Both the position numbers and the translations under genes were made by a program. The notes beneath the pieces are model-generated. The model did not search any database. It worked only from the letters and a program-made list of their open reading frames with translations, and was not told the DNA's origin. Positions 32,521-36,683 of a stretch of DNA of 64,000 nt are shown in pieces (positions within the stretch are counted from its first letter, which is position 1; each line of letters starts with the position of its first letter). The DNA comes from Acidobacteriota bacterium (lineage in GTDB: Bacteria; Acidobacteriota; Blastocatellia; RBC074), in assembly GCA_016196035.1 (NCBI GenBank), contig JACPYM010000066.1:1-64000 (forward strand), in the 5' to 3' direction.

Positions 32521-32782
32521 TTCCGCACGAAGGCACACGAAGGAGCACTAGGAAAATAAAGTCTCAGTAGTTCTAACAGCAGGGGAAAGGCTGAGCTGTA
32601 GGACGCAAGCTGATTCCTGGCTCCGGATGCCTGATAGGCCGAAAATGCCGGCAATTTTCAACAACCAGGAATCAGGAGCCAGGAATCAGGAATCAGCCCG
32701 CCAGTACGACGCGTTACCACAGGTTGAAATTTGGAACTGCTGAGTCTTCTTAGTACTCCTTCGTGTGCCTTCGTGGGCGGAA
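32521..32782. repeat. About 260-bp imperfect palindrome
   Basis: The outer arms 32521-32545 and 32756-32782 share the CACGAAGGCACACGAAGGAG block in reverse, with a two-base gap. A second pair (32560-32573 with 32734-32747) and an inner pair built on CTGATTCCTGGCTCC continue the symmetry. AGGAATCAGG is also repeated directly near 32665-32695. It fills nearly the whole gap between permease and hydantoinase genes. Confidence 0.7.
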
Positions 32783-32787
32783 CGATT

Positions 32788-34974
32788 ATGAAAGTTCGCA
32801 TTGGCATTGATGTCGGCGGCACCTTCACCGACGTGGTCGTGCTGGACAACGAGACGCACGAACTCGTCGGGCAATTGAAGCTGCCCACTTCGCACACCGC
32901 GCGCGAGGGCGTGGCGCTGGGCATCGTGTCAGCGCTCGAAGAAGCCATGCGCAAATTCGCCTTGCAACCCGATGATGTCAGCTTCATCGCGCACAGCACG
33001 ACGCAGGCGACGAATGCGTTGCTGGAAGGCGATGTGGCCGAGGTGGGCGTCGTGGCGACAGGCAGCGGTTTTGAAGGCTGGCTGGCGCGGCGCGCGACCC
33101 GGGTGCCGCCGATTGCGTTGACCGCCAGCAAGCAGTTGATCGCGCAACACGCCTTCGTCAATGCGCAGAAGCGCGCGCGCGAACAGGCGTTGGAACAGGC
33201 GTTGGATTTGTTGGCGGCGCGTGGCGTGCGCGTGATCGTGGCTAGCGAAGCGTTCAGCGTAGACCGCGCTGCGGGCGAGACGCTGATTGCCGAAAAAGCG
33301 CGGGCGAAAAACCTGCTCGCCACCAGCGGTCACGAAGTCAGCAGCCTATACGGCTTGCGCGTGCGCACCCGCACCGCCGTCATCAACGCGGCCATCTTGC
33401 CGAAGATGATCGAGACGGCGGAAATGACCGAACGCTGCGTGAAAGACACCGGCATCGGCGCGCCGTTGATGATTATGCGTTCGGATGGCGGCGTGATGAG
33501 CGTCGGCGAAGTCCACAACCGCCCGCTCCTGACCATGCTCTCCGGCCCGGCGGCGGGCATCGCGGGCGCGTTGATGCACGAACGCGTGTCGGACGGCATC
33601 TTTATCGAAGTGGGCGGCACCAGCGCCGACATATCGGTCATCCGCGATGGCAATCCGGCCACGCGGTCCGCGCGTTTGAACGGGCATCGGATGTACCTGA
33701 ACACGCTGGATGTGCGCACGCTGGGCGTGGGTGGCGGCAGCATGATTCGGGTTGACGCAGAGATTGAGCCAGCCGTGAATCACATATTTGAAATTACAGA
33801 TGTCGGCCCACGCAGTGCGCACATCGCGGGGCTGGCTTATGCCTGCTTTACTCCGCCAGCAGAACTTGCCGGTGGGGAAGTCGAAATTATTCAGCCGACG
33901 CCGGGCGATGAAAGGGATTACGCGGTAGTGCGCACGATAGGTGGAAAGCGCGTGGCGATCACTACGACCTGCGCGGCAAATTTGTTGGGTTACATTACGC
34001 CGGGACATTTCGCGTTTGGAAATAAACATTCGGCGGAAATCGCTTTTACTTTATTGAGCGAGAGTTTGGGGCGTGCGGGGAAAGGTTCGTTTGCAACGGC
34101 GGCGAATGTGCTTGAGCTGGCTGGCGGCAAAATCGTGGCGACGATCAACGAACTGATTGCCGAATACCAACTCGCGCGCGATCAAGTCGTGCTGGTCGGT
34201 GGCGGCGGCGGTGCCGCTTCATTGGTGCCATTCACCGCGCAGTTGCTGAAACTGGAACATCGCATCGCCCGCAATGCCGAAGTTATTTCGCCCATCGGTG
34301 TCGCGCTGGCGATGGTGCGCGACACCATCGAACGCAACATCGTTGATCCCACGCCCGAAGATATTCTGAAAGTGCGTCGCGCAGCCGCCGATGCCGCGAT
34401 TGCGGCGGGCGCCGTGGCTGAGAGCGTCGAGGTACAGGTCGAAGTGGATAAGCGCCGCAATCTGGTACGTGCGACGGCGTTGGGCACCACCGAAATGAAA
34501 CGACGTGAGGGCGAAGCAGTGACGCTGACCGTCGCGGATTGCCAAACTGCGGCGGCACGTTCGATGCGGCTGGACGCGGGCGCAATGCGGCTCGCGGCGG
34601 AAACTGTCGGTCATTTGGTTTTCACGGGCGAACAAGTAGAGCGCTCCTGCTTTGGTCTTTTTAACGCGCGGCGGCAAATGTTGCGTGTCGTAGATCGCAC
34701 GGGCGTGATACGCTTACAGCGCAGCACGGCGCGTGTAAGCAATACGACGCTCGCCGCACTCCCAGATGAATTAGCACGCGCGGTCGAGGCGCTGACCGAT
34801 TATGGAGACGCCGGACGCACGATCCCCGACATCTTCATTTTGTACAGCGCACGCTTGGTGAATTTTTCCGGCTTGGCCGAATTGGAACAAGTACAGGCGT
34901 TGACCGAAGTCGAATTGCGGTCGCTCGATCCGGCCACCAAGTTGGTGATCGTGGCATGCCCGAAGCAGGTATAA
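32788..34974 (+). CDS. Hydantoinase/5-oxoprolinase family protein (HyuA-like)
   Basis: 728 residues from the ATG at 32788. The N-terminal ATP-binding segment RIGIDVGGTFTDVVVLDNE, the middle SFIAHSTTQATNALLEGDVA and the hydantoinase A segment MRSDGGVMSVGEV, LSGPAAGIAGAL and EVGGTSADISVI are clear. The ATP-dependent ring-opening of 5-oxoproline or hydantoins is the family reaction. No HyuB-type partner gene is adjacent, so activity on its own or on a different substrate is open. The next gene starts four bases after its stop. Confidence 0.9.
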   Translation: MKVRIGIDVGGTFTDVVVLDNETHELVGQLKLPTSHTAREGVALGIVSALEEAMRKFALQPDDVSFIAHSTTQATNALLEGDVAEVGVVATGSGFEGWLARRATRVPPIALTASKQLIAQHAFVNAQKRAREQALEQALDLLAARGVRVIVASEAFSVDRAAGETLIAEKARAKNLLATSGHEVSSLYGLRVRTRTAVINAAILPKMIETAEMTERCVKDTGIGAPLMIMRSDGGVMSVGEVHNRPLLTMLSGPAAGIAGALMHERVSDGIFIEVGGTSADISVIRDGNPATRSARLNGHRMYLNTLDVRTLGVGGGSMIRVDAEIEPAVNHIFEITDVGPRSAHIAGLAYACFTPPAELAGGEVEIIQPTPGDERDYAVVRTIGGKRVAITTTCAANLLGYITPGHFAFGNKHSAEIAFTLLSESLGRAGKGSFATAANVLELAGGKIVATINELIAEYQLARDQVVLVGGGGGAASLVPFTAQLLKLEHRIARNAEVISPIGVALAMVRDTIERNIVDPTPEDILKVRRAAADAAIAAGAVAESVEVQVEVDKRRNLVRATALGTTEMKRREGEAVTLTVADCQTAAARSMRLDAGAMRLAAETVGHLVFTGEQVERSCFGLFNARRQMLRVVDRTGVIRLQRSTARVSNTTLAALPDELARAVEALTDYGDAGRTIPDIFILYSARLVNFSGLAELEQVQALTEVELRSLDPATKLVIVACPKQV

Positions 34975-34978
34975 AGCA

Positions 34979-36154
34979 ATGCAAAGCACGAACGTGAAAA
35001 TGATTGGCGCAGCCTTTGGAGTGCGCGCGGCACAGGCCGCCGCTTTGGTATTCCCTTCATTCGTCACGCGCCCAAGGGTTACCAAAGCGGCGGCCTGTGC
35101 CGCGCGCACTCCAAAGACGCGGCCCCTTACATTCAAAGCTGTAGGTGGCTGGTTTTTGCTTGCGCTGCTTTTGTGCAGTTCGCTGGGCAATGCCCAGGAA
35201 CGCAAACCGCAGGAGCGCTCTGCGCCAGAGAACAAAGATGAGCAGGCGCAGTTGGCGCACGCGCAAACGTTGCTCAAACAAGCGCGCGAGGCTGTCGGCA
35301 ATGATGATGCCTGGAGCAAGCTGCAAAACCTGACCGTGCGACTCAAACTGGAACGCCCCATCAAATACGTCAGTGTGCAAGGCCCCGACAAAGTCGAAGA
35401 AAAAGAGCGCACGCTCAACGGCAAGATCGAATTGGATTTCGCCGCGCCCGACCGTTACCGGCGCCGGTTCACGACCCAGACGCTGAGCAATTACAACTAT
35501 TCTTTTTCCGAAATCGTCAATGGCGACAAGGCCTGGCGCGACCCGCCCTTGCAAGTGCGCTCTTCGCAGGGCGACAACCGCGTGGTGGATGTCGGGGACG
35601 TTGATCGCACGCTGAACGCGCAGACGCAAAGCGCGTTACAGCAATTGAGCCTTTTCACGCTGATGTATTTGCTGAAGACGCCCGCCGCCGTGCCGGTTAA
35701 ATGGCGCTACGAAGGCAAATATGAGTTCACCGATCAAACCTTGGGCGTGGAACCGAAAGAAGTGGACTTGTTGATGGGCGTGCTGCCCGATGAGTTCCGC
35801 CCGTTCCTGTTTCTCGATCCGCAAACACATCAGTTGGTGGCCGTCGCGCTGGCTTATGTCGAAGCCTTGCGACCCAGCGTGATGGTCGAAGTGGCCGCCT
35901 TGGATCGCGGTTATTTGCGCCGCACTTATCAACGTGCGGGGCAGGAGCGGCGGGCGCGTTCCAAACCAGCCCGTATGCACGAGATGCGCTGGCTATTGTC
36001 AGATTACCGTGCCGTCAATGGCGCACAATTGCCGCATCGCATTGACGTGACGCGCGATGGCGAGTTGCTGGAAACCATGACCGTGCGCGAACTTTCGACC
36101 GAGCGCCCGATCAATCCGAAAAAATTCGAGGGCGAGCCGAAGGTGAAGTATTGA
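34979..36154 (+). CDS. Exported LolA-like protein with a repeat-derived N-terminus
   Basis: 391 residues if started at ATG 34979; ATG 35000 is also possible. The hydrophobic export segment (GGWFLLALLLCSSLGNAQ) begins only at about residue 55. Everything before it, FGVRAAQAAALV to TKAAACAARTPK, is translated from a 37-bp-armed palindrome (35014-35116). No start codon with a ribosome site lies between the palindrome and the export segment. The mature part is alpha/beta with SKLQNLTVRLKLERP, KIELDFAAPDRYRRRFT and a C-terminal YRAVNGAQLPHRIDVTRDG, reminiscent of LolA/LolB-type outer membrane lipoprotein-sorting folds. It overlaps the next gene by one base. Confidence 0.7.
   Translation: MQSTNVKMIGAAFGVRAAQAAALVFPSFVTRPRVTKAAACAARTPKTRPLTFKAVGGWFLLALLLCSSLGNAQERKPQERSAPENKDEQAQLAHAQTLLKQAREAVGNDDAWSKLQNLTVRLKLERPIKYVSVQGPDKVEEKERTLNGKIELDFAAPDRYRRRFTTQTLSNYNYSFSEIVNGDKAWRDPPLQVRSSQGDNRVVDVGDVDRTLNAQTQSALQQLSLFTLMYLLKTPAAVPVKWRYEGKYEFTDQTLGVEPKEVDLLMGVLPDEFRPFLFLDPQTHQLVAVALAYVEALRPSVMVEVAALDRGYLRRTYQRAGQERRARSKPARMHEMRWLLSDYRAVNGAQLPHRIDVTRDGELLETMTVRELSTERPINPKKFEGEPKVKY
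35014..35116. repeat. Palindrome with 37-bp perfect arms inside a reading frame
   Basis: 35014-35050 and 35080-35116 are exact inverted copies (left arm begins CTTTGGAGTGCGCGCGGCAC). The longest perfect arms in the window. Same family as 36545-36649. It is translated as the N-terminal extension of the LolA-like protein. Confidence 0.9.
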
Positions 36155-36534
36155 TGCGCGGGCTGTCGTGTCGAAACGGGGAAACGGATTTGAGCGCAAC
36201 GGCCCGCGCCCTGGCCGCAAAATTACGCCAACAGCACGGCCCGGTTTCAGCTTTTGAGTTAGCGCGGCTACACGGCGTCGAAGTTGTTGCTGACCGCTGG
36301 CAAGTAGCACATGGCCGTATTGTTTATTACGGCGAATGCACGCGCGAACCTTTGCGCATCGTGCTGAATGAAGCCGTGCTCGAACAGGCGGACTACTGCG
36401 AACAGATGCGTGAACTCGTCATCGCGCACGAACTCGGTCATTTGTTGCTGCCGCGTCCTTCGGTTTTCGCTTCAAGCAAAACAATTGAAAGTGCTGCCCA
36501 CGCCTTTGCGCACGAATGGATTGGCAATTGTTGA
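36154..36534 (+). CDS. ImmA/IrrE-type metallopeptidase
   Basis: 126 residues. The zinc motif HELGH lies in MRELVIAHELGHLLLPR at about residues 87-103, and a second conserved stretch ESAAHAFAHEW follows as usual in this family, giving the third ligand. The N-terminal half (ARALAAKLRQQHGPVSAFEL, HGVEVVADRW) matches the ImmA/IrrE domain start. Such peptidases cleave repressors or act in stress responses and are often next to a regulator; here none is adjacent. The ATG overlaps the preceding TGA, so translation is coupled to the LolA-like gene. Confidence 0.85.
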   Translation: MRGLSCRNGETDLSATARALAAKLRQQHGPVSAFELARLHGVEVVADRWQVAHGRIVYYGECTREPLRIVLNEAVLEQADYCEQMRELVIAHELGHLLLPRPSVFASSKTIESAAHAFAHEWIGNC

Positions 36535-36544
36535 CGCGAAGCGT

Positions 36545-36649
36545 CTTTGGAGTGCGGGCGGCACAGGCCGCCGCTTTGATAGTCCAGTTGCTTATTCGAC
36601 AATCCGGAAGACTACCAAAGCGGCGGCCTGTGCCGCACGCATTCCAAAG
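36545..36649. repeat. Palindromic element, 40-bp arms, same family as 35014-35116
   Basis: 36545-36584 and 36610-36649 are inverted copies with about three mismatches and share GGCACAGGCCGCCGCTTTG with the element 1.5 kb upstream. It starts about ten bases after the metallopeptidase stop and ends shortly before the kinase start. Confidence 0.85.
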
Positions 36650-36683
36650 GCTCCGCTCTGCTTGCAAGTGAACAGCGAAATTT

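Follow-up and report, generated by a model that had tools for sequence, protein, structure and literature searches.

A perfect palindrome at the 5′ end of a gene for an exported protein, located in the 64,000-nt stretch of Acidobacteriota DNA that was analysed (hereafter the window), belongs to a REPIN-type family with dispersed copies, and its origin is therefore ordinary mobile DNA. We consider it probable that a REPIN of a RAYT lineage was inserted into an existing gene, and that translation starting from ATG 34979 continues through the element into a longer precursor. The features concerned are collected in Table 1.

Table 1. Positions of the gene, the element and related features; positions are those of the window unless a contig is named.
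Feature	Position	Strand	Remarks
Upstream gene, hydantoinase/oxoprolinase-like	32731..34974	+	PF01968, PF05378; stop TAA 34972-34974
Exported-protein ORF, 391 aa	34979..36154	+	Predicted LolA-like fold; ATG 34979 taken as inherited start
Codons before insert, MQSTNVKM	34979..35003	+	Further in-frame starts GTG 34994, ATG 35000
REPIN-type element	35003..35132	-	Model match 137.8 bits; ends ~35004 and 35120-35131
Left arm, 37 nt	35014..35050	+	GGAG tag and internal REP-like hairpin GCGGC-ACAG-GCCGC
Loop, 29 nt	35051..35079	.	Diverged among copies
Right arm, 37 nt	35080..35116	-	Inverted copy of left arm
Signal peptide coding TRPLTFKAVGGWFLLALLLCSSLGNAQ	35117..35197	+	First codons partly element-derived
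Alternative TTG start	35156..35158	+	AGGTGG at 35143-35148, fair Shine-Dalgarno-like
Second element copy	36529..36660	+	Between ORF 36151-36534 and ORF 36684
RAYT-type (HUH/Y1) transposase gene	C29:237232-237471		Locus L063

The first-pass annotation had described a perfect palindrome with 37-bp arms, lying between the start codon and the export segment of the 391-aa ORF. Both statements hold: the two 37-nt inverted arms are exact reverse complements of each other at a spacing of 29 nt, and the coordinates place them between ATG 34979 and the hydrophobic core of the signal peptide. The 216 nt around the arms have a fold energy of −127.3 kcal/mol, compared with a mean of −79.5 for shuffled sequences (z = −10.9), and none of 200 shuffles was equally low. 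The 19-nt core of the arms, allowing up to three mismatches, occurs four times in the window against an expectation of 0.02. A chance palindrome was rejected on the basis of these fold statistics and the excess of the core in both window and genome.

Throughout the source genome (9.59 Mb in 139 contigs), the core has 48 exact occurrences (23 + 25), nearly always in inverted pairs, while the backward control has none, and the 33-nt arm gives 55 matches with up to three mismatches. Counted by reading the copies, there are about 29 elements, namely two in the window, 19 at loci L001–L019, one split between contig ends C20 and C32 (counted once; both ends carry the same loop), four at L075–L078, one at L079 and two halves at contig ends (L081 and L082). 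A covariance model found at least 43 distinct places in the genome, sister elements included, and this is a lower bound since 150 of 10754 first-look candidates were scored. At contig ends C20, C32, C35 and C75, the assembly breaks fall inside element copies. The L079 copy is degenerate, with another palindrome of the L062 type nested inside it, and the second copy in the window lies directly 3′ of a short metallopeptidase-like ORF (36151-36534) that has sub-threshold Pfam matches only.

The normalised element, of about 128 bp, consists of TTYGACGCGCAGCGTC, arm, loop, inverted arm and GGCTTCGCCAA, with small hairpins at its ends outside the REP pair, and the window copy lies in the minus orientation relative to it. 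In nearly all aligned copies, the arm unit is GGAG-T-GCG-N-GCGGC-ACAG-GCCGC-CGC, a bulged hairpin. Across 23 copies, from which L077 was excluded owing to its longer loop, the arms are 96.5% identical on average and the loops 65%, compared with 52.7% for shuffled loops. Pairing is maintained in 99.4% of the cells of the arm helix across 23 copies, and even the arm position that varies most pairs in all 23 of them (13 U-A, 6 C-G, 3 G-C and 1 U-G). The loops of L001 and L006 are identical but oppositely oriented relative to the end hairpins, which suggests that the loop can flip between the inverted arms. All six frames of the arms are free of stop codons, and whole elements have on average 2.7 of six frames open, compared with 1.6 for shuffled ones (24 copies). 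In the window copy, the end hairpin at the right end is lost, with GACGCGGCCCC in place of GACGCTGCGCGTC; the insertion edge is therefore imprecise by up to ~11 nt on the signal-peptide side, and this degenerate end suggests that the insertion is not brand new.

The 391-aa ORF starts 4 nt past the hydantoinase stop. No Pfam family (the best match being sub-threshold) and no NCBIfam family was found for its product, and a PDB sequence search returned weak unrelated matches only. The named relatives of this protein come from Acidobacteria MAGs at all seven loci. The predicted structure has a mean pLDDT of 75, and a fold search with it returned LolA, RseB and MucB matches at E ≤ 0.001 with low query TM-scores (0.17–0.41), the best of which are LolA proteins (top E 2.8e-8, with query TM 0.32–0.41 among the first four matches listed). 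A LolA-like model would be fitting for the exported protein. There is no indication of a dead gene, since the reading frame past the repeat is intact for all 345 aa, this part represents a conserved family, aligning over most of its length to relatives at up to 48% identity, and it is compatible with the LolA-like model.

Which start codon is used decides whether the element is translated. In-frame start codons lie before the element (ATG 34979, GTG 34994 and ATG 35000), inside its left arm (GTG 35021 and TTG 35045) and after it (TTG 35156 and TTG 35171). The hydantoinase end was seen in seven of the ten relatives examined, and the gap from its stop to the start of the exported-protein gene is 10, 10, −19 and 18 (GTG) or 48 (TTG) nt in four of them and 36, 111 and 1014 nt in the other three. 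The n-region of the signal peptide comprises 54 residues with a net charge of +9 here, versus 4–25 residues and +1 to +3 in the nine relatives with an assignable start, and it comes to 15 residues with a net charge of +3 when 35004–35120 are left out. One relative (G003, locus L028) was left out of this tally, as its start is ambiguous owing to another palindromic repeat. That repeat (L028:1266-1411), unrelated to the present one, directly adjoins the signal peptide of this relative's version of the exported protein, and a GTG lies at the repeat end. The relative in genome G005 starts with MQSSN, resembling the MQSTN here, although this is a single case among nine relatives and could be coincidental. 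Homologues with an equal extension but without the repeat, which according to the first-pass annotation would speak against its proposal, were looked for and none was seen among the nine relatives with an assignable start.

Taken together, the operon start gaps and the n-region lengths argue that ATG 34979 is the inherited start and that the element is an in-frame insertion. The simplest reading of the sequence is that ATG 34979 is used and that roughly 39–43 insert-encoded residues precede the signal peptide, so the Ala/Arg-rich stretch proposed in the first-pass annotation stands, but its length, given there as about 35 residues, comes nearer to 39–43 once the element ends are counted. We hypothesize that a REPIN of ~128 bp was copied into the 5′ end of the gene, at a site past the start codon but ahead of the hydrophobic signal-peptide core. 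As 128 nt is not a multiple of three, the frame requires either that 117 nt were inserted or that small changes followed, and since no strain without the insert was found, we infer the empty site. Initiation would most likely still occur at ATG 34979, with the ribosome reading through the element; the arms are stop-free and the loop of the window copy is open in the frame used, and therefore translation most likely passes through. The resulting precursor would carry the extra basic residues ahead of its Sec signal peptide. A long n-region can be tolerated by a Sec signal peptide; export would presumably still work, and the extension would be removed along with the signal peptide. An altered or blocked export, as proposed in the first-pass annotation, is at most a possibility.

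Alternatively, the REPIN might in effect be an untranslated leader, with initiation downstream at TTG 35156 or another weak start, which we regard as unlikely. The AGGTGG located 7 nt before TTG 35156 could serve such a start, and the repeat would look translated in any case because its arms are open in all six frames. Further, in other copies, such as those at L010, L014 and L018, the element is followed by a gene whose own ATG lies beyond it, and these positions match the caution, given in the accessible text of Di Nocera et al. (PMC3733652), that misannotation may account for most N-terminal REPs, which would then be extragenic. However, a start at 35156 would give a very short, uncharged signal peptide (MLALLLCSSLGNAQ) that lacks the basic n-region found in all nine relatives counted above, and in several relatives the start adjoins the hydantoinase stop, a position that here would be upstream of the element. 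Therefore, the claim that the only usable start codons lie upstream of the palindrome is slightly too strong, given the AGGTGG, although ATG 34979 does fit the operon; likewise, the unusual start that had been offered as an alternative could be TTG 35156, but this is less likely than ATG 34979.

A different consequence of the same insertion would be a crippled gene, with translation or export halted by the long hairpin or the extended n-region, and an ORF that has recently become a pseudogene. A very stable hairpin does begin 35 nt past the ATG, and an n-region of 54 residues is far beyond the range of the family. We nevertheless hold this outcome to be distinctly improbable, considering that the remaining 345 aa are free of stops and frameshifts and still align to relatives, and that the degenerate end of the window copy suggests that the insertion is not entirely recent.

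The insertion into the exported-protein gene has one partial parallel in the same genome. At L077 (positions 1469-1653 of that locus, on contig C86), the copy has a longer loop and is followed by an NHL-repeat ORF, whose signal peptide is separated from it by a stretch containing a TTG but no ATG, and both this copy and the window copy give stop-free, arginine-rich leaders. It is conceivable, but rather doubtful, that REPINs repeatedly supply the n-regions of exported proteins in this organism, such that a selfish hairpin would become a front end tuning translation or Sec targeting. We find it even harder to accept that the 5′ hairpin has come to serve the hydantoinase-LolA-like operon as a regulatory RNA element, acting by attenuation, RNase III processing or slowed translation. 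Its position at the operon junction and the 37-bp perfect duplex that it would form in RNA are consistent with such a role, and published REPs are often transcribed near gene ends, according to the available text of PMC3733652; however, the same anatomy is found in copies without such a position, and the family is absent from the relatives searched.

With regard to the class of the element, two GGAG-tagged REP-like units in inverted orientation make it a REPIN by layout, and it is best read as such from its sequence, since the inverted REP pair is able to form one hairpin and the roughly 29 copies are dispersed within a single genome. REPINs lie mostly outside genes; judged by rough ORF context, several copies here (L010, L014 and L018) precede a gene. 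The genome contains 14 Y1_Tnp genes. An NCBIfam scan of nine of these found two exceeding the RAYT cut-off (L061 and L063), the L063 gene on contig C29 scoring 83.3 bits against the REP_Tyr_transpos cut-off of 80. Nothing convincing of the exact family was found near the 14 genes in a first scan that allowed the arm up to eight substitutions. A repeat search around five of the 14 loci (L060–L064) found inverted repeats flanking the RAYT-like gene on both sides in every case, and at C29 these belong to a sister family, TTTGGAGTGCGGCGGC-TCGA-CGCCGCTTTG, which shares the TTTGGAGTGCG...CGCTTTG frame and the GGCTTCGCC-type end with the exact family. The RAYT-like genes at L060, L061, L062 and L064 each have their own distinct flanking palindromic repeats, and beside the C29 RAYT gene (L063/L132, C29:235000-240000), about six 19-nt units, TTTTGRAGTGCGGCGGCTC, are repeated in tandem.

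Through this sister family, we infer that the exact family is tied to a RAYT, and mobilisation of the window copy may have been carried out by the RAYT-type transposase lineage to which the C29 gene belongs. Among the 147 genomes searched (its own and relatives), the sister motif was found in 30 at up to two mismatches and the exact arm variant, at up to three, in its own genome only; an exact scan of the collected genome contigs with a generalised arm matched no stretch, the records of its own genome possibly lying outside that collection. No target-site duplication was detected in the 20 of 24 intact copies used for the test (mean repeat length 2.35 nt, compared with 2.42 nt for re-paired flanks, and 317 of 500 re-pairings as high), which is compatible with RAYT mobilisation via single-stranded hairpins. 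A MITE mobilised by a DDE transposase would likewise be a palindromic and dispersed element of ~128 bp, but is highly improbable given the tag-plus-hairpin layout, the sister family on both sides of a RAYT and these 20 copies, whose flanking repeats are no longer than those of re-paired flanks and on which a MITE with target duplication was rejected.

Insertion of a hairpin into a gene is an event already on record, of which this one is a neat instance and not a novel type. Searches for literature on REPINs and RAYTs in Acidobacteria and on intragenic REPINs returned known REP papers among the results, and a search combining REP, signal peptide and N-terminal extension returned no paper. The present case is an operon-anchored example of a REPIN in a coding sequence, in which the usual objection of a misannotated start is weakened. 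In addition, the range of RAYT-linked palindromes is widened to include a superfamily with GGAG tags in this acidobacterial class, and the arm covariation and loop inversion among its copies should be useful for studying how REPINs copy themselves.

As described in the accessible text of Bertels and Rainey (2011; PMC3116915), a REPIN is an inverted pair of REPs separated by a less conserved spacer, predicted to form a hairpin and present in dispersed copies, and RAYT genes are flanked by REPs. The family described here resembles these REPINs in its inverted REPs, diverged spacer, hairpin and dispersal, its genome likewise has a RAYT gene flanked by REPs, those of the sister family, and its layout was also compared with the descriptions available from PMC3733652 and PMC8266576. 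In published REPs, GTAG or a variant of it tags the base of a short hairpin that is often bulged, whereas the tag here is GGAG, for which the accessible text of PMC3733652, PMC3116915, PMC8266576, PMC2817692 and PMC6006769 contains no word-start match. Further differences from the published accounts, as far as their text extends, are the small hairpins outside the REP pair, the link of the exact family to a RAYT only through its sister family, and the location of the window copy inside a gene. For the last of these, precedents are found in Di Nocera et al. (2013; PMC3733652), whose available text reports GTAG/CGTC REPs and REP dimers within ORFs of several species, often contributing 20–30 aa, with most cases in Opitutus terrae and Rickettsia conorii and some of them N-terminal. 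The element here is similarly N-terminal within an ORF, but unlike those cases its upstream start is backed by operon context and the insert lies directly before a signal peptide. The Rickettsia palindromic elements (RPE-1 and others), which the same source describes as translated in frame inside genes, are alike in being in-frame palindromes but belong to a different phylum, and the likeness is one of description only.
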